Shown one piece after another: positions 29,871 to 37,729 of a stretch of DNA of 64,000 nucleotides; position 1 is the stretch's first letter, and every line of letters starts with the position of its first letter. Made by a program: the position numbers and the translations under genes. The stretch lies in contig NZ_CP092487.1 in assembly GCF_022429565.1 (NCBI RefSeq), positions 1,397,001 through 1,461,000 on the forward strand, given 5' to 3'. The notes beneath the pieces are model-generated. The model worked only from the letters and a program-made list of their open reading frames with translations, had not been told where the DNA came from and did not search any database. The DNA is from Lutibacter sp. A64 (GTDB taxonomy: Bacteria > Bacteroidota > Bacteroidia > Flavobacteriales > Flavobacteriaceae).

Positions 29871-30461
29871 ATGAAAAAAAGATTACTAGTAACGTTTATT
29901 TTAGTGTTTATTACTATTATTTCATATAGTCAAACAACTAAACAATTTATTGATTCTGGCTCTGTAGATACACAATTCGAAAACTTAATTGAAAATTCTA
30001 ATAAATACCAAGATTATAAAGTTGTAAAACTAAATTGGTTATTAAAATTAAAATCTAATATTAACGATTCAATTTCAGCTTCAAAAGAAGATATTTTAAA
30101 AGCTACAAACACCATAAACAAACAAAAAGCAGTAATTGATAGCCTAAATACTTCTTTTAGTTCTAAAAAAAATGAAATAGCTAAATTAAAAAATCAGATA
30201 ACCACAATTTCTTTTTTAGGAATCGATTTTGAAAAAGGCTTATTTAAAACTATAATGCTATCTATAATTGGTGGATTACTATTATTCCTTTTGTTCTTTA
30301 TTTCTAAATACAAACAAAGTATTAGTGTTACAAAGCTTACAAAACAAAATTTAAAAGAAGTTGAAGAAGAGTTTGAAGAACACAGAAAAAGAGCTTTAGA
30401 ACGTGAACAAAAAGTAATGAGAAGATTACAAGATGAATTAAATAAACATAAAAAAGATTAG
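29871..30461 (+). CDS. Secreted/membrane coiled-coil protein
   Basis: A 196-residue protein with a signal peptide (MKKRLLVTFILVFITIISYSQ), a periplasmic segment, a coiled coil (about 70-115), one membrane helix near 125-145 and a basic, charged helical tail (ehrkralereqkvmrrlq-type). Homologues are sometimes auto-annotated as tRNA (guanine-N1)-methyltransferase, for which there is no support here: no SAM-binding or SPOUT motif. A TAATTTTG at 29836-29843 may be its own -7 element. Confidence 0.75.
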   Translation: MKKRLLVTFILVFITIISYSQTTKQFIDSGSVDTQFENLIENSNKYQDYKVVKLNWLLKLKSNINDSISASKEDILKATNTINKQKAVIDSLNTSFSSKKNEIAKLKNQITTISFLGIDFEKGLFKTIMLSIIGGLLLFLLFFISKYKQSISVTKLTKQNLKEVEEEFEEHRKRALEREQKVMRRLQDELNKHKKD

Positions 30462-30475
30462 TTTTTATAGTTATT

Positions 30476-31495
30476 TTACTTTCCAATAAAGTTTGTATCG
30501 GTTAATGTTTTTAAAAATGAAATAAGATCTAATTTTTCCTGTTCTGTTAAAGGAATTCTATTGCCATTTTTTTTAAAAATAGGATCTAAATTATCGGCAT
30601 ATAAAACGCCATTATCAAAATAATCTAAAACTTCTTTTAAAGTAGCAAATTGTCCAAAACTGCCATAAGGTGCTGTGTATTCTATGTTTCGTAAAGAAGG
30701 AACACGAAAACGCATATAATCTTCTTCAATTCCAGTAACTCTTGCTCTACCTGCTTCATCTGTATTTGGGTTTATAGGAAATCCAATATTTCTAAAGCTT
30801 TGATCTGTAAAAAGTTCTGTACTATGGCAAGTTGCACATTTTTCTTGAAAAATTTGATAGCCTTTTGCTTCATTTTCAGTAAAAACAACTTCTTCATTTC
30901 TTTTTACACTGTCGTATTTACTATTAGCAGAAATCAAGGTATATTCATATTGAGCAATGCTATTATATATTCTTTCTGGTGTTATTTCTTTATCACCAAA
31001 AGTTTTATTAAATAATTGAACATACGTTTCATCAACTTCAAGTTTACCCATTACTTCTAAAATAGAAGAATCCATTTCTTCATGAGTAATTATAGGAACT
31101 AAAGGCTGATTTTCTAATTTACGTTTATTTCCATCCCAATTATAAACTTGCATAAATGCCAAATTTTGAATTGAAGGTACATTACGCAGTCCTACTCTAC
31201 CCTTAATTCCAATACCTATTGCATTGGTATCTGAAAATGCATTTTCTTGTTTATGGCAACTAGAACAAGAAATGGTATTATCTGTACTTAATCTTTTATC
31301 AAAAAAGAGTTTTTCACCCAATTCAACTCCATATTTTGTAGGAAAATTACTATATACCGAGTTGTTTAACTCTGGAAATTCTGCTGGAATATTGAGAACT
31401 AAGTCTGGATTGTCATAAGAAATAATCTCATAATCATCGTTGTTACAAGATATTAATAACAGCAAAATAGCTATATTTCTTATAAATAATTTCAT
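30476..31495 (-). CDS. Diheme cytochrome c peroxidase, MbnH/MauG-like lipoprotein
   Basis: A 339-residue periplasmic diheme enzyme with a lipobox (LLLLISC, Cys17) and two c-type heme sites, CSSCH (77-81) and CATCH (220-224). RNVPSIQNLAF and VYNWDG (Trp120) match MauG/CCP proteins. The usual PYMHDG segment reads PYGSFG (276-281), losing the Met/His seen in ordinary peroxidases. Directly downstream of an MbnP gene, which defines the MbnP/MbnH pair: in methanotrophs MbnH oxidises a Trp of MbnP to kynurenine, creating a copper site. I infer the same role. A hairpin at 31526-31561 separates the two genes. Other possibility: a peroxide-detoxifying CCP. Confidence 0.88.
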   Translation of the reverse strand: MKLFIRNIAILLLLISCNNDDYEIISYDNPDLVLNIPAEFPELNNSVYSNFPTKYGVELGEKLFFDKRLSTDNTISCSSCHKQENAFSDTNAIGIGIKGRVGLRNVPSIQNLAFMQVYNWDGNKRKLENQPLVPIITHEEMDSSILEVMGKLEVDETYVQLFNKTFGDKEITPERIYNSIAQYEYTLISANSKYDSVKRNEEVVFTENEAKGYQIFQEKCATCHSTELFTDQSFRNIGFPINPNTDEAGRARVTGIEEDYMRFRVPSLRNIEYTAPYGSFGQFATLKEVLDYFDNGVLYADNLDPIFKKNGNRIPLTEQEKLDLISFLKTLTDTNFIGK

Positions 31496-31525
31496 TAAAA
31501 ATAGATTTTATTGACTTTTATTTAA

Positions 31526-31561
31526 AGAGTCAGCCTGCTTTTAATAAGCATAACTGACTCT
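31526..31561 (-). promoter_or_regulatory. Intercistronic hairpin between mbnP-like and mbnH-like genes
   Basis: Outer arms agagtcag (31526-31533) and ctgactct (31554-31561) with an inner stem tgctt/aagca. Only a short T tract follows on the minus strand, so it looks like a partial terminator or mRNA-end stabiliser that would keep the peroxidase below its protein substrate. Confidence 0.55.
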
Positions 31562-31574
31562 AAACATTAAAATA

Positions 31575-32444
31575 TTAATTTTCTACACTTGTTATAGAAA
31601 ACATTCCAGTTACATTACTTGTTCCATTTCCTCCAATATTATCAACAAATCTCGTCATTTGAACAGCTGTATGAATATTTGGTGTTGCGTTATTAGGCAT
31701 AGCAGTTCCAGAACTTAGTGTAATAACTTCATTATCACCACTTAACAATTTATCAAAATCTACATTTATGTTAATTAATGGTGCGTTGCTACCTACAATT
31801 GCATTTGTTGGTAAATTTAATGTAATATCTCTATAAGCATCTACACCAGGTACATAAGTACTTTCGTCTCCTTGAGTTCCATCTATTGTGCTACCTGTAT
31901 GTATTGATAATTCTTTATCATCAACATCATAAAAACCTTCTATTTTTGTAAAACGATAGCCTGTTCCCCACTCCCACATCATTTCTGTATCATTTGCTCC
32001 AGCAAGTGCATAAAAATTTGGAAAACTTACTTGATCTAAAGTATTTAATTCAGATTTTACACCTAATCCAAATTTTATTTGAGTGTATTCTGCGGTAGGA
32101 ATTTCATTTAAAACATATTGTAATGTCACTGATTTTGAATGATCTACAACTGTTGCTCCATTATCTAAATTATTTATATTATACGGAATTTCAATTCCAT
32201 CAGTATTTATAAGTCTAATATTACTAATCACATATTTTAATTCAGAAAAATAATGCGTTTGCCCTGCTTCTGAAGTATTTACAGTTGCAGTTGCAGCATC
32301 GGTACCAAGCACTATAGTAGTACCTTTAAACGTATTATTAAACGCTAATACTATGTTGTTTGCTACAGGAATATCATCATTTTCACAAGCTATAAATGTA
32401 ATTGATAAAATAGCTAATAAAATGTAGTTTTTTAAATTTTTCAT
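31575..32444 (-). CDS. MbnP-family copper-associated lipoprotein
   Basis: A 289-residue lipoprotein (lipobox ITFIAC, Cys20) of the MbnP family. Family blocks: YFSELKYVISNIRLI (66-80), FGLGVKSELN, and MMWEWGTGYRFTKIEG (155-170) with the conserved tryptophans 157 and 159. In characterised MbnP/CorA proteins a Trp is turned into kynurenine by the partner diheme enzyme and helps bind copper; whether W157 or W159 plays that part here is inference. Located between the TonB receptor and the MbnH-like gene, all on the minus strand with short gaps. Confidence 0.87.
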   Translation of the reverse strand: MKNLKNYILLAILSITFIACENDDIPVANNIVLAFNNTFKGTTIVLGTDAATATVNTSEAGQTHYFSELKYVISNIRLINTDGIEIPYNINNLDNGATVVDHSKSVTLQYVLNEIPTAEYTQIKFGLGVKSELNTLDQVSFPNFYALAGANDTEMMWEWGTGYRFTKIEGFYDVDDKELSIHTGSTIDGTQGDESTYVPGVDAYRDITLNLPTNAIVGSNAPLININVDFDKLLSGDNEVITLSSGTAMPNNATPNIHTAVQMTRFVDNIGGNGTSNVTGMFSITSVEN

Positions 32445-32485
32445 TGTTTTTGATTTTTTATTATTTGTTGTTTAGTTATTCTTTT

Positions 32486-34471
32486 TTAAAAATTTATTTT
32501 TAAAGACGTAAATACATTACGTCCCATTCTTGGTATATTTCCCCAGTCGGCATAAGTGCTGTAATATGTATTAAATAAATTTTCTGCACCTACTTGAATT
32601 TCTGCTTTATAATTTTTAATATAAAAATTATAATCTACTGAAACATCTAAATTATTATAAGAAGGTGTTTCATCTTCTCCGTATTCCGGACTGTAATTTT
32701 TTTGTTTTAAATCTCCATAAAACGACGTTTGAATTCCAAATTTGTGATACGAAAAATGTAGTGTTGTTTGATAACTTAACGGGCGAATAAATGGTAAGTT
32801 ATTTTTATGATCATCCAATCCTCTCGCATAGGTTAATGTTCCATTCCAATGCAAATTATTCAATACATTGTATTTTGCATTTAGCGAAAAATTAAACAAA
32901 GATGCATTGTCTAACGAAGTATAGCCTTTTACACCAACAGACTGATAATTCATAGGGCTTCCCAAACTTAAAATTCTTCCTATAATATAATTTTGAATAT
33001 AGAAATAATTTACTTTAGCTTGTAAACTTCCCTTTTGAATGTTAACACCAGCACTTGCATTTAATTCATAAGAAATTTCATTTTTTAAATCTGGATTTCC
33101 TATATAATCGTATCTATCAAAACTATTATAAATATAATATCCATAACCTTCAGAAACAGAAGGAGCTCTATGTCCATACCCACCACCGACAGAAAAATTA
33201 TAGTTGTTTACCTGTAACGTATAACCCGCATGTAAACTTGGCAAAAACCGTGTTTTTTTCTGAGGTGCTCCCGGATGAAAAATCCAGTTAAATTCTGCAT
33301 ATTTAGAATAGTTATAATTTAAACCTAAAGATCCTCCAAAGTTAAGTTGACTTACCGCTGAAATTTCCCACAAATTATTTGTTGAAAGTCCTGCATAGCG
33401 CGTAGTAACCCAAGGCCAACTGTAAGCAAACATTGTACGCTCACTTCTGTCTTGTGGATACATTCTCATTTCTGCAATCGATAAATTATCGTATATATTT
33501 AATTGTATTTCTGAAGCTAAATCATCATTTTTCAAATTTACTTTAGAAAGCAATCCATAAGTTGTACTCCATCCTGGCATATCCATATGCACTAAATTTT
33601 CTGGTCGGGTTGTATCGTCCATATAATGTTCAATTGCATTAAAATAAACTTTAGTATCCCAAACTTTTAAAGTTCCTTTTTCAAAAAATTGTTTATATGC
33701 AACTGATGTAATAAGTGCTCTAGAAAGTAATAAATCCATTGGAAGCGCCGGAAAACCAACATCATTTGCCTTATCAAAAATAGCATCTACTTTTAAAGAA
33801 GATAAATCGCTAGTTTTATAAGCAATACCAATTGAAGCATTTAATTTTTCGAACTGAGAATGCTTTACGTCGTCATTATTTCCATCTTTATAATTAGCTG
33901 CTTTTCTGTGTGATATACTTCCATCAACGACCAAATTTTTATTAGAATAAGAAGCATTTGCAAGGTTAAAAAACTGATTGTTATTAAACTCAAAACCTGT
34001 TTGGTATGCTCCTTTATAATTTTTATCAATTGTAAATGCAGTACTTTTTCTTTTTAAATTGATACTTCCAGCAACTGTTGCTCCGTGTAAACTTCCTTCT
34101 TGTCCAGATTTTATATCTATTTCAGAAAGGTTATTACTCTCAACATACGATGTTACAGGATCCATTTTATCTGTACAAGCACCAAAAATGTGCATTCCAT
34201 CAATGGTAACAGTAGAACGCTCTGTACTCATATTATTTAATAAGGGTTCCCAAGCATAAGCTCCACGTTTAATAAAACTTATATTATTTGAAGATGCTAA
34301 AAACTCATCAACAGTAACTGCCATTTTCATTTCAGTTTCTAATTGCTTTTTTTTAGCTGCAATAATTACAACTTCATCTAAAGCTACACCTAAACTGTCG
34401 CTTTTTTTCTGAACGGTTTGGGCACTTACAACTGTTGTTATTAAGAGTATTGCTATAGTTATTCTTTTCAT
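32486..34471 (-). CDS. TonB-dependent receptor, OprC/NosA-type (copper)
   Basis: A 661-residue outer-membrane receptor: signal peptide to about residue 17, plug domain (about 25-145; DEVVIIAAKKKQ, TIDGMHIFGAC, GSLHGATVAGSINLK) and a 22-strand-type barrel ending in the aromatic residue of SLKINF. The plug carries CTDKM (Cys99-x3-Met103) and the barrel EHYMDD (His282-x-Met284), the CxxxM and HxM motifs that bind copper in Pseudomonas OprC and mark NosA-like receptors. It should import copper with TonB/ExbBD energy. It starts five bases after the YtkA-like gene and precedes mbnP by 42. Confidence 0.9.
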   Translation of the reverse strand: MKRITIAILLITTVVSAQTVQKKSDSLGVALDEVVIIAAKKKQLETEMKMAVTVDEFLASSNNISFIKRGAYAWEPLLNNMSTERSTVTIDGMHIFGACTDKMDPVTSYVESNNLSEIDIKSGQEGSLHGATVAGSINLKRKSTAFTIDKNYKGAYQTGFEFNNNQFFNLANASYSNKNLVVDGSISHRKAANYKDGNNDDVKHSQFEKLNASIGIAYKTSDLSSLKVDAIFDKANDVGFPALPMDLLLSRALITSVAYKQFFEKGTLKVWDTKVYFNAIEHYMDDTTRPENLVHMDMPGWSTTYGLLSKVNLKNDDLASEIQLNIYDNLSIAEMRMYPQDRSERTMFAYSWPWVTTRYAGLSTNNLWEISAVSQLNFGGSLGLNYNYSKYAEFNWIFHPGAPQKKTRFLPSLHAGYTLQVNNYNFSVGGGYGHRAPSVSEGYGYYIYNSFDRYDYIGNPDLKNEISYELNASAGVNIQKGSLQAKVNYFYIQNYIIGRILSLGSPMNYQSVGVKGYTSLDNASLFNFSLNAKYNVLNNLHWNGTLTYARGLDDHKNNLPFIRPLSYQTTLHFSYHKFGIQTSFYGDLKQKNYSPEYGEDETPSYNNLDVSVDYNFYIKNYKAEIQVGAENLFNTYYSTYADWGNIPRMGRNVFTSLKINF

Positions 34472-34475
34472 AATT

Positions 34476-35399
34476 TTAAAATAAAATGTCTATATACAAT
34501 TCTCCTTTTGCTCCTTCAATACCTGGTGTAAATTCTGTTGAAACTTCAGTTCCTTTTATAATTTGTCCATTTTCATCTAGTAATATAAAATTCAATGTCC
34601 AGTTCCCTGTCATTGTATAATTAACAAAACCATGATATAACCCATCACTTTGTTGAACCAAATCTTGATTGTTAGGCGATGAATGGTTTCCCATCGAAGG
34701 TTCTGGCATTCTTGGATCTAACAATAAAGTATGATTATCTACTATGGAATATGAAAACAGAGTTGGATCTGGAAAAGTTCCTTCAGAATTTATTGGTTGA
34801 TTGTATTTATAAATACCCGCAACCAAATCGTTTTGTGAAACATTCGGACTCTGCGGAGCAACTAAAGCTATAAAATACTGTTCGCCATCGTTACCTGTAA
34901 ACGCCGTCATATTTAGATTTAAATTTGTTTGTTCCTCAACAGTAATAATTTGTTCTACTGAATGTGTTTTATCAATATCAACAACATCTATAAATAACTG
35001 CCAACTTACTGTTGAATCACTTTCACTAGTAAATACAACATAACCTTCATAATAATTCTCGTCTGTATTATAATTTAAATTATAACTATGCGGGCAAGAA
35101 ACTTTGTTTCCATTAGCATCTGTCATAATTGGCAAAAAGGTTAATTTTAAATTATCCAAGTTTTCATTGGTTAAAGCATTACCAACTTTTAAATGAATTT
35201 TATTATAGCCTTTATATAAAGTACCGTTTAATGCATCAACACTAATAGTGTAATCATCACTAATTATAGAAGTTACCTCTTCAAATTCAATAAATTCGGT
35301 AGTTTCAATATTTAATTCAGCTTCGTAATCCGTTTTATCTATGGTACAAGAAGTAACCATAATAAAAACTGCAATTACAATAATTTGTAAAAGTTTCAT
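34476..35399 (-). CDS. Lipoprotein with two YtkA/FixH-like domains, probable copper handling
   Basis: A 307-residue lipoprotein (VTSC, Cys18) made of two similar immunoglobulin-like halves. The first has KIHLKVGN...IMTDANGNKVSCPHS (Met92, Cys102, His104). The second has LLLDPRMPEPSMGNHSS (Met231, Met236, His239), then GLYHGFVNYTMTGNWTLNF, the YtkA-like GxY-xxxxx-MxGxW pattern. Met/His clusters of this kind suggest copper binding. First gene of the receptor-MbnP-MbnH run, with 303 bases of regulatory-looking DNA upstream. Confidence 0.8.
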   Translation of the reverse strand: MKLLQIIVIAVFIMVTSCTIDKTDYEAELNIETTEFIEFEEVTSIISDDYTISVDALNGTLYKGYNKIHLKVGNALTNENLDNLKLTFLPIMTDANGNKVSCPHSYNLNYNTDENYYEGYVVFTSESDSTVSWQLFIDVVDIDKTHSVEQIITVEEQTNLNLNMTAFTGNDGEQYFIALVAPQSPNVSQNDLVAGIYKYNQPINSEGTFPDPTLFSYSIVDNHTLLLDPRMPEPSMGNHSSPNNQDLVQQSDGLYHGFVNYTMTGNWTLNFILLDENGQIIKGTEVSTEFTPGIEGAKGELYIDILF

Positions 35400-35702
35400 T
35401 ATTTATTGACTGTTTAATTAAAAACTGTTGAAAATATAGTTGCCTTTAATAAACATACTAATACCATTAAAAATTAAAAGCACCACTTTTTATTAAATAA
35501 ACTACTGTATGATATAGTTAAGAAACACACAATTTCAAAAAATACAACACAAGCATAACCCCTATATTTATAAAACTAGGTTAACTATATAGCATACTTT
35601 TTCATTATTTTTAATTTTAAAAAAGCATGTCCGTATCTAACTATTTATATCAAATAGTTAAATAATGAATATTGATTGTAAAGTTTCTTATTTATGAAGA
35701 AA
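35400..35702. promoter_or_regulatory. Intergenic region with inverted repeats upstream of the copper operon
   Basis: No gene seen. Contains a 10-bp inverted pair atatagttaa (35512-35521) / ttaactatat (35581-35590) and a compact palindrome aactattt-5-aaatagtt (35639-35659), all sharing a TTAACTAT/ATAGTTAA core. These could be regulator sites; no standard TTG/TAnnTTTG promoter is obvious on the minus strand. Confidence 0.4.
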
Positions 35703-36068
35703 TTAAACTAGTGGAGGATGAAAAATAAATCCCATATAATGAAATTTATAACTATTATTATATTCAATGTTTATTTTTGATTTTTGTTCTTCTGAAATTA
35801 AACAGCTATAAAATGGTGTTTTTTCATAAAAATAAACTGTAGAATGTTCTGCTGAATAAGAATGATTTTTTTTAGTATCATTTTCAGAATTGGAAGCTTT
35901 TACCAGTTCTTTTTTTAAATGACACTTTCCATTACATTGCATTTCAGGAACATCTTGATTTACGCAAAGTTCATTTTTAATATAGTCGTAAAAAGCAGCA
36001 TATTCCAATAGCGGAAGTATTGGTTTAAAAAATAAAAATAAAGCTAATATAAGTGCCACTGTTTTCAC
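35703..36068 (-). CDS. Small membrane/secreted protein with CxxxCH motif, copper-operon associated
   Basis: A 121-residue protein read from a GTG start. It has a hydrophobic N-terminus (about 1-22), then LEYAAFYDYIKNELC, MQCNGKCHLKKELVKA (Met43, Cys45, Cys49, His50; with Cys35) and a C-terminal FHPP. Small proteins of this kind sit in front of metal TonB receptors in flavobacteria; the Cys/Met/His cluster suggests metal binding. A short palindrome aatatc-a-gatatt lies at 36075-36087 just before the start. No ribosome-binding site is evident, so the start is uncertain. Same strand as the operon at 35399 but 303 bases upstream. Confidence 0.75.
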   Translation of the reverse strand: MKTVALILALFLFFKPILPLLEYAAFYDYIKNELCVNQDVPEMQCNGKCHLKKELVKASNSENDTKKNHSYSAEHSTVYFYEKTPFYSCLISEEQKSKINIEYNNSYKFHYMGFIFHPPLV

Positions 36069-36206
36069 GTGGCGAATATCAGATATTTTTTAAAAAATTC
36101 CTAATGTGTAATTATTTAATCTGAAAATTATACTGATTTTTATCATATAACTATTTTTTATTTTTTACTCATACTTTTAAGTACTTTTCTATTATTAATT
36201 AAACAG

Positions 36207-37196
36207 TTATTCTATTGTTATTGGTCTCCAAACACCACCATAAACTTCATCTTCTGTTCCAAAAGAATGGGTTGCTTTAATACTTTTAGTTGATCCCGAT
36301 AACGCTTCTACTTTAAATCCTGAAATAACTTCCCAGTTAGAAAAATTGGTGTAGATTTTAAATGGACGTTCTTCATTAGAAAGATCAACTTGACCTATTT
36401 TATAAATTACTGAATAAAAAGGACCAGCATCACTTATATCTTCTGAAGCTGCCGCCCAAATACCTCCTTCAGCATCAATATGAAGGTCTGTAATAGCTCT
36501 TTTTGCATTGTTATTTGTCCAATTGCCTGGCGCTTGCACTTCAATCCCTTGCAAACCTACATCACTAAAATTTAACTGATGTGTTTGTAAATTATAAACT
36601 CCCCACCTAACAATTCCATTGGGGTTTACCTTTGAACCACCGCGTTCAGCTAGAATTAGTATTCTTTTATTTTCGTTATAAGGCAAACAAACAATTGCTT
36701 CATATTGATCTCCTACAACCTCTAAATTATTTATATTTTTTAAAGGAAGTTTTGTTATACCAAGAATCTTAGCCATTAAATTTTCTACATCTACTTTAAT
36801 ATGAAAAATCCTTCCAATTTCACCTTTCCAATTTCCAGATTCTGCAATAAAATATTCATCTGTTTTACCTGGTATTTTACAAATACTTTCTAAATCACTT
36901 GCTAAACCTTCATCACCCCATTCAGAAATAGTAATTGGAGAAACTAAAACACCTTCTTCAGTAATTTTTAATATAGCTAACCTCGCTCCTGTTTTATAAC
37001 TTTTAATATCATAAACTACTAGGTAAGAATCGTCATCTAATTTTTCCATTCCACTTGAACCTCCACTTTGTTTTACTAATTGAATTTCATTGTTTTGATC
37101 AGGTTTTATAGATTTTGAAGTTTTACACGAAGTTACCAGACTTAGAATAATACAAATTAGAAACAGTGTTAAGTAATTAAATTTTAAAAATTTCAT
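36207..37196 (-). CDS. Lipoprotein, probable beta-propeller of unknown function
   Basis: A 329-residue lipoprotein (SLVTSC, Cys24). Repeating strands of the kind SGMEKLDDDSYLVVYDIK, GLASDLESICKIPGKTDEYFIAESG, DQYEAIVCLPYNENKRILILAERG and DLHIDAEGGIWAAASED resemble the blades of phytase-like esterase or SMP-30-type propellers. Conserved acidic residues (DLESI, AERGG) could bind calcium. I cannot name a substrate. It lies on the same strand as the copper genes, upstream by 138 bases, but its membership in that operon is unproven. Confidence 0.65.
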   Translation of the reverse strand: MKFLKFNYLTLFLICIILSLVTSCKTSKSIKPDQNNEIQLVKQSGGSSGMEKLDDDSYLVVYDIKSYKTGARLAILKITEEGVLVSPITISEWGDEGLASDLESICKIPGKTDEYFIAESGNWKGEIGRIFHIKVDVENLMAKILGITKLPLKNINNLEVVGDQYEAIVCLPYNENKRILILAERGGSKVNPNGIVRWGVYNLQTHQLNFSDVGLQGIEVQAPGNWTNNNAKRAITDLHIDAEGGIWAAASEDISDAGPFYSVIYKIGQVDLSNEERPFKIYTNFSNWEVISGFKVEALSGSTKSIKATHSFGTEDEVYGGVWRPITIE

Positions 37197-37393
37197 ACAG
37201 TAATATTTAATAATTGATGAAGATGCTTAATTATTTTTAGCAAAATAAGCTTCTTTAAATTTGAAAAGTAAAAGTTACAAATTTTAAAACAATACTAACA
37301 AAAAACATTCTAGGTTCTCAATTCTATTTTTAGTATAAAAAATCTCCATACCAACAAGAGCGCCATTCAATCACTTAACTAATTAGCTATAAA

Positions 37394-37729
37394 TTATTTA
37401 GAGTATTTTTCAACTACATAATCACCCCAATCAGCAATAGATTGAATTACCGGAATTAATGTTTTACCAAAATCAGTTAATGAATATTCCACTTTTAAAG
37501 GCGGTTTTGAAGTATAGACTTTCCTTTTTACAACCCCATCGTTTTCTAAAGTTTTTAACTGTAAACTTAAAGTTCGCTCTGTAACAGTTGGCATTTCTTT
37601 TCTCAATTCATTATATCTTAAAGGCCCCTTTATTAAGTGATATAAAATCACCGTTTTCCATTTCCCACCTATAATTCCCATTGTTAAACTCGCACAACAA
37701 GGGTATTCTTTTCCTTTAAATGTATGCAT
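37394..37729 (-). CDS. HxlR-family transcriptional regulator
   Basis: A 111-residue winged-helix regulator with the HxlR blocks GGKWKTVILYHLIKGPLRYNELRKEMPTVTERTLSLQLKTLENDGVV and YSLTDFGKTLIPV. Cys11-Cys12 near the N-terminus fits the redox- or electrophile-sensing cysteines of YodB/HypR relatives. It is divergent from a nitroreductase, the usual HxlR target. Its own promoter (37762-37792) and the shared region carry repeated actata/tatagt motifs, suggesting autoregulation and control of the nitroreductase. Confidence 0.92.
   Translation of the reverse strand: MHTFKGKEYPCCASLTMGIIGGKWKTVILYHLIKGPLRYNELRKEMPTVTERTLSLQLKTLENDGVVKRKVYTSKPPLKVEYSLTDFGKTLIPVIQSIADWGDYVVEKYSK

Follow-up and report, generated by a model that had tools for sequence, protein, structure and literature searches.

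Two described systems are close to the five-gene locus considered here, which lies on the minus strand of a 64,000-nucleotide stretch (the window) of the genome of Lutibacter sp. A64 and begins with a small exported-type open reading frame (ORF). CruR of Bordetella is a first-gene ORF with a Cys motif and a RAPP end, and copper turns its receptor operon down via Rho-dependent termination (PMC9426467); the arrest of CruR at RAPP was demonstrated in vitro (PMC12992588). Proteobacterial operons led by DUF2946 genes carry OprC-type or CrtA receptors, PepSY_TM and MbnPH-like genes (PMC9426467). CutF of Rhodobacter has a CxxxC motif and a proline-rich end, and copper increases the expression of its downstream gene; 5,334 CutF-like proteins were reported, 40% of them (normalised) from Bacteroidota, with TonB-like genes as common neighbours (PMC9973294). 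Upstream ORFs of copper genes ending in RAPP or RGPP were reported to be absent from Bacteroidota (PMC12992588). The small family described here would escape such a search because its end is not RAPP.

In our opinion, the Lutibacter locus is rather probably an operon for acquiring copper whose first gene controls the others at the level of translation. Judging from the analysis of its family, the small protein encoded by this gene is probably a nascent-chain copper sensor of the CutF/CruR type and not a component of transport.

The five-gene locus and its first gene

The five genes, all on the minus strand, are given below in the order of their transcription, with positions counted from the first letter of the window.

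35703..36068, minus strand: small ORF of exported type (121 aa, starting with GTG), a candidate upstream ORF that senses copper
34476..35399, minus strand: Met/His lipoprotein, distantly YtkA-like, two beta domains
32486..34471, minus strand: OprC-like TonB-dependent receptor, 661 aa (TIGR01778, OprC structures, alignment)
31575..32444, minus strand: MbnP of lipoprotein type, 289 aa (PF20243)
30476..31495, minus strand: MbnH/MauG-type dihaem enzyme, 339 aa (PF03150, TIGR04039)

The intergenic gaps between them are 303, 4, 41 and 79 nt. A preceding sequence-only reading placed five adjoining minus-strand genes in 30476..36068, and all of the ORFs were found as given there. It also named a failure of neighbourhood conservation beyond the receptor as one of the results that would speak against it. 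The neighbourhood held across the loci compared. Alignments and gene order support a single conserved locus in which a Met/His lipoprotein accompanies a copper-type outer-membrane receptor and the MbnP/MbnH pair.

Relatives found by the searches belong mainly to Flavobacteriaceae, e.g., Winogradskyella, Algibacter, Polaribacter and Formosa. Among 80 named loci headed by the small ORF, the complete five-gene set with its order kept was found in 30, where the receptor is more than 60% identical. Another 25 consist of the small ORF, MbnP and MbnH (two of these, L099 and L110, carry intervening genes), and 17 of the small ORF, the lipoprotein and a receptor of less than 60% identity. The remaining loci have MbnP only (two), MbnP with the lipoprotein and the receptor (one) or none of the four genes (five). 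Thus, the small ORF stands first in the operon in 75 of the 80 loci, with at least one of the other four genes downstream. When MbnP was used as the seed in genomes of the family, an MbnH homologue was found no more than 2.5 kb downstream in 103 of 108 MbnP matches (of 110, the match in the Lutibacter genome itself and the contig-edge fragment G124:C48 were excluded). Since 30 of 80 loci keep the order and 103 of 108 MbnP genes have MbnH nearby, the grouping is more than chance. In the same draw, all nine loci with an OprC-type receptor have the small ORF (eight by pattern and L128 by eye). MbnH is kept and a small PP-ended ORF is absent upstream in 71 of the 108 matches, mostly lower-scoring ones (L002-L031, L115-L192).

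Two elements of the small ORF are important for its interpretation.

35922..35936, minus strand: CNGKC (CxxxC), candidate copper site, from conservation
35712..35717, minus strand: Pro-Pro codons, followed by two more codons and the stop, candidate site of ribosome arrest, from conservation

The database search gave 188 relatives of the small ORF, and the counts given below for listed homologues cover 120 of them. No Pfam or NCBIfam match above cut-off was obtained for the small protein, nor any in Pfam for 35 members of the family. Its CNGKCH segment is a CxxxC motif and not a haem CxxCH. C45, G47, K48 and C49 are invariant in 35 aligned sequences, C..KC occurs in 119 of the 120 listed homologues, and C35 is a further conserved Cys. 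The hydrophobic N-terminus is kept in the alignment, from which it looks export-like.

The Pro-Pro pair (PP) lies no more than nine residues from the C-terminus in all 120 listed homologues and is the sole invariant feature of this end. Its distance from the second Cys of CNGKC is 67–71 residues in 118 of them, the other two having failed the Cys pattern. In the same 118, PP is preceded by H, R, K, Q or V, and in 93 it is followed by two residues. Column entropy is 0.0 bits at PP against 2.43 bits in the preceding 47-residue linker.

Proteins with such Cys motifs are often chaperones, and the small protein could be a secreted copper chaperone or sensor acting after its release, with PP serving the folded protein and an ordinary transcription factor controlling the operon. 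The conserved C35, C45 and C49, the export-like start and the adjoining copper genes are in agreement with this. However, PP is invariant though it directly follows the most variable stretch of the protein, 47 residues long, it sits at the stop even where the downstream genes differ, and CutF was reported to be quickly degraded following export (PMC9973294). We consider the chaperone explanation unlikely and prefer the nascent-chain sensor.

The PP end recurs in 79 of the 80 named loci. It was also found in the MbnP-seeded draw, which is independent because its seed was MbnP and not the small ORF. There, 36 small CxGKC ORFs lie upstream of MbnP in 108 loci (L128 was added by eye); PP occurs in the last 12 residues of 36/36 of these ORFs versus 3/223 other ORFs of similar size. 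Of 395 Bacteroidota genomes sampled, 119 contain the family according to a profile search. Among its distant homologues, 39 of 40 are PP-ended. These 40 were picked by the analyst, out of at least 46 such proteins listed, for matches stopping short of the C-terminus, and the PP end was therefore no part of the match. Downstream of the distant small ORFs lie TonB-dependent receptors, a lipoprotein with a receptor, MbnP with MbnH, or a different outer-membrane-like protein. In five distant Bacteroidota loci (L238, L245, L252, L254, L257) the small PP-ended ORF precedes an exported protein of 339-361 aa that has 'GRPDGHAPI.VMGDH.H' and segments rich in Met, and that may be a further copper protein of the outer membrane.

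Two loci differ at this end. The ORF of L083 (8001-8441) continues beyond the stop position of its sisters and ends in SFGFAFDRSLTSII, and that of L260 has the C-terminus VLLQNSVTNS, with a lipoprotein-receptor pair downstream. Tandem pairs of small CxGKC...PP ORFs stand before one MbnP or OprC operon in L012, L018, L026, L124, L126 and L130.

Start codon and downstream gap of the small ORF

The region around the small ORF contains the following elements.

36098..36104, minus strand: TTAGGAA, candidate -33 promoter element, recurring upstream of the small ORF in many five-gene relatives
36073..36080, minus strand: GATATTCG, candidate -7 promoter element, 4 bases short of the GTG start, from the pattern count
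35400..35702, minus strand: 303-nt gap that follows the small ORF and precedes the lipoprotein gene

TAnnTTTG is the -7 promoter element of Bacteroidota. Comparison of upstream sequences showed [G/T]AnnTTTGC immediately 5' of the start codon of the small ORF, which is GTG in 57 of 74 loci (73 of the 80 named ones and that of the window). The pattern [GT]AnnTT[TC][GA], written after inspection of 27 of the 74 sequences, was found at this start in 65. At the starts of four downstream genes, set by script to the first ATG and possibly wrong in some cases, it was found in 0/48, 1/48, 1/58 and 2/56. As the -7 element abuts the start codon, the transcript should begin at or near this codon. On this sequence evidence, transcription is inferred to begin at the GTG or a few bases from it, and the message is likely leaderless.

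The sequence-only reading had taken the small CNGKCH protein for a component of a copper route. This part of it did not stand, and the protein behaves like a copper-sensing upstream ORF. It is read so because it heads varied copper operons, has an invariant PP at the stop and lies where the transcript apparently starts.

In 31 five-gene loci, including that of the window, the small ORF is separated from the lipoprotein gene by a gap of 282 nt on average (range 133-414). A long gap is common to this family and CruR, with 162 bp in Bordetella (PMC9426467). In contrast, most gaps behind CutF-like genes are shorter than 100 nt (PMC9973294), against an average of about 282 nt in the five-gene loci.

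The receptor, MbnP, MbnH and the lipoprotein

The candidate metal and haem sites of the four downstream genes are as follows.

34163..34177, minus strand: CTDKM, with C99 and M103 as the plug's half of the OprC-type copper site, aligned on OprC C143/M147
33620..33628, minus strand: HYM, with H282 and M284 as the barrel's half of that site, aligned on OprC H323/M325
31968..31976, minus strand: WEW (W157, W159), the WxW segment of MbnP, which aligns with WNW in 7l6g, with W157 as candidate precursor of kynurenine
31899..31901, minus strand: H182 of MbnP, candidate copper ligand, aligned on His of 7l6g 'MVHVGST'
31602..31604, minus strand: M281 of MbnP, candidate copper ligand, invariant in 26 aligned sequences
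31253..31267, minus strand: CSSCH, first haem site of MbnH, from sequence
30824..30838, minus strand: CATCH, second haem site of MbnH, from sequence
34668..34718, minus strand: DPRMPEPSMGNHSSPNN cluster, candidate copper ligands of the lipoprotein, from conservation in 18 aligned sequences

The best NCBIfam match of the receptor is TIGR01778, TonB-dependent copper receptor (E 7e-27, 94.4 bits). The four copper ligands of OprC of Pseudomonas aeruginosa are C143, M147, H323 and M325 (PMC8610252), and the predicted CxxxM plus HxM of the Lutibacter receptor indeed align on both pairs. C99, M103, H282 and M284 are invariant in 12 of 12 aligned homologues at identities down to 42%. In the loci headed by the small ORF, both CxxxM and HxMD are present in 48/48 receptors, as a motif search for the pattern anywhere in the whole protein. 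This quartet is, at the level of sequence, the decisive feature for assigning the receptor to the copper type. The CxxxM-HxM motif of the copper site is shared with OprC (PMC8610252), while identity to plasmid-borne OprC relatives is in the range of about 21% and the TIGR01778 score is under the cut-off. The receptor also matches the haem receptor family TIGR01785 with 71.6 bits, and it might import a copper chelate, haem or another metal, with the locus responding to iron or another cue. This is very improbable, given the higher TIGR01778 score, the retention of all four OprC ligands and the copper-type features of the other four genes.

A flavobacterial receptor with CxxxM-HxM, that of Bizionia argentinensis, was earlier proposed for copper uptake; MbnP is unmentioned in the available text, and the CutF named there is NlpE-like and distinct from the small family of Lutibacter sp. 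A64 (PMC11213822). The host genome, a single contig of 4,028,615 bases, contains exactly two members of the small family at E <= 1. The second ends in FKPPQATS and is followed, after 265 nt, by a 756-aa OprC-type receptor with the quartet in ACPNRM and DHLM and 269.7 bits for TIGR01778. The two top TIGR01778 receptors of the genome (270 and 94 bits) are thus the two headed by small-family members, and therefore both of its OprC-type receptors are led by this family.

MbnP passes PF20243 (E 1.4e-33, 116.8 bits, cut-off 27), which together with WEW bore out the expected MbnP fold with its WxW; with TIGR04052 it scores 52.5 bits, below the cut-off of 140. The fold was confirmed by structural alignment with MbnP of Methylosinus trichosporium at 16% identity. 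W157, W159, H182 and M281 are invariant across 26 aligned MbnP sequences, and WxW is present in 57 of 59 MbnP proteins of small-ORF-headed loci. M281 presumably serves as a copper ligand, a role reported for MbnP. The neighbouring enzyme, 79 nt away, was correctly predicted to be a dihaem MbnH-like protein: it matches PF03150 (E 4.3e-50), has two CxxCH haem sites, and its best NCBIfam match, though under cut-off, is TIGR04039, 'MbnH family di-heme enzyme' (209.6 bits). Structure 6e1c, 'Di-heme enzyme', aligns over its residues 54-337.

In M. trichosporium, MbnH reportedly oxidises the leading Trp of the WxW segment in MbnP, which gives kynurenine. The Lutibacter pair shares with the M. trichosporium one (7l6g, 6e1c) the fold, WxW, His, Met and an adjoining dihaem partner, but sequence identity is low, MbnB was not found, and an OprC-type receptor takes the place of MbnT. 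The expected absence of methanobactin genes was upheld for MbnB (TIGR04159), which has no match in the genome at E <= 0.001; the search did not extend to MbnC or a precursor peptide. In methanotrophs, isolated MbnPH pairs are known to occur next to MbnT-like receptors (PMC3621798).

The lipoprotein had been described as YtkA-like with two Met/His or Met/Cys/His clusters. The second cluster, DPRM..P.MGNH.SPNN, is nearly or fully invariant in 18 aligned sequences with identity down to 33%: in DPRMPEPSMGNHSSPNN the residues D, P, R, M, P, M, G, N, H, S, N and N do not vary. TMTG.W is likewise conserved. The other parts of that description fared worse, since the first cluster (SCPH) is less conserved and the match to YtkA PF13115 is weak (18.3 bits, below the cut-off of 25.9). 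The model of the protein consists of two beta domains with only generic structural matches. We would guess at a role in copper relay from its Met/His content and the position of its gene.

The proposed switch and its relation to CruR and CutF

The Lutibacter operon shares with CruR-led operons an exported-type Cys-motif ORF in the first place, PP near the stop, a copper receptor and MbnPH-like genes (PMC9426467). Nevertheless, the small family has CxxxC and not CxxC, [H/R/K]PP and not RAPP, and a spacing of about 69 and not 45, so that the combination of CxxC and C-terminal RAPP about 45 residues apart, characteristic of CruR, is not found in it. The operon adds the Met/His lipoprotein and a likely leaderless start, and no profile homology was detectable. 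A Pfam search at E <= 1 with 35 small-family members did not bring up DUF2946 (PF11162), nor does it match anything in the host genome at E <= 10, and hhalign of the family with 23 Burkholderiales DUF2946 proteins gave a probability of 0.1%. With CutF-like proteins the family shares CxxxC, a proline motif near the C-terminus and the first place in a copper operon; it also falls within their size and PP limits (<150 aa, PP in the last 15 residues), having 121 aa and PP two residues from the end, and may be included in list D of PMC9973294. In contrast, copper turns the gene downstream of CutF on, and the main text of that paper names no MbnP, peroxidase or OprC (PMC9973294).

As the small family shares its plan with CruR and CutF, it is proposed to be a nascent-chain copper sensor of a copper-starvation uptake operon. 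The transcript would begin no more than a few bases from the GTG with which the small ORF starts. The nascent chain would be exported, and its CxxxC, having left the ribosome, would sample copper outside the cytoplasm, while translation arrives at the terminal Pro-Pro and pauses. Copper binding would alter this pause and so decide the expression of the downstream genes across the gap of about 300 nt, with these genes on under copper scarcity and off under plenty, as in CruR. The receptor would carry copper over the outer membrane, the lipoprotein and MbnP would take it up, and MbnH would turn the first WxW Trp of MbnP into kynurenine, completing the copper site of MbnP. We infer stalling, copper binding, polarity, the leaderless start, kynurenine formation and the response of the operon to copper; the anatomy, conservation and genomic context of the locus are read directly from the sequences.

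The on-when-scarce polarity is most likely because the cargo of the operon is uptake. The opposite one, with copper lengthening the pause and turning the genes on for copper handling or detoxification rather than acquisition, would follow CutF, which has the CxxxC and the proline-rich C-terminus in common with the small family and whose downstream gene is raised by copper (PMC9973294). It seems quite improbable to us: the genes in question are an importer-type receptor with MbnP/MbnH, copper turns down CruR-led receptor operons (PMC9426467), and CutF acts in a short gap by opening a stem-loop that covers the ribosome site, whereas the gap of the window is long and not specially structured.

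Several points weigh against the proposed copper-scarcity switch. It rests on sequence and genomic context. The gap is no more structured than same-strand control gaps (mean z -2.59, n=31, versus -2.63, n=40), it lacks the excess of C over G expected of a Rho site (skew of -0.206 for the window), and a search of 30300-37400 gave no intrinsic terminator; the gap therefore gives no support for a specific downstream switch. The hhalign probability of 0.1% was obtained against one alignment, and with no detectable DUF2946 homology the analogy with CruR rests on architecture. The Cys-to-PP spacing of about 69 differs from the approximately 45 reported for CruR and CutF. Promoter patterns at the start codon are much rarer in distant members (14/41 with 2.4 expected, and 7/20 with 1.1 expected), and L083 and L260 are exceptions to the PP end. 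The receptor and the MbnH-like protein remain below the strict cut-offs of TIGR01778 (94.4 versus 472.45 bits) and TIGR04039 (209.6 versus 362.85 bits). In Flavobacterium enshiense, F. cauense and F. humi (L074, L077, L089) the receptor led by the small ORF is TonB-dependent, belongs to the siderophore-receptor type and lacks CxxxM.

A literature search found no description of the flavobacterial five-gene operon or of an xPP-stop sensor at MbnP/MbnH. The combination of an OprC-type receptor with MbnPH-like genes, methanobactin genes being unmentioned in the available text, is already noted in DUF2946-led proteobacterial operons (PMC9426467). The chances are about even that Bacteroidota possess phylum-wide nascent-chain copper sensors with CxxxC and an xPP stop, often with transcripts starting at their own start codon and not recognisably related to DUF2946, which gate OprC-type receptors and MbnP/MbnH. 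Copper uptake and extracytoplasmic sensing of its scarcity in this phylum are little described in the literature found. If the proposal is true, the locus identifies the receptor, acceptors and switch together, one co-translational switch governs both copper entry and construction of its acceptor, and kynurenine-type copper sites fall under copper-starvation control far from methanotrophs. It would also give a handle on 119 of the 395 sampled Bacteroidota genomes and extend copper-sensing arrest peptides to a phylum where RAPP/RGPP copper upstream ORFs were reported absent (PMC12992588). The mechanism would be directly testable in reconstituted translation, as the Cys-to-PP spacing is fixed and the leader is probably very short or missing.

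A DUF2946 gene of the CruR kind (CGYC, RAPP) was met 85 nt upstream of a TonB-dependent copper receptor gene on the conjugative plasmid pPF72-2 of Pandoraea faecigallinarum (L193, 2256-4851), where the pair is flanked by transposase genes.

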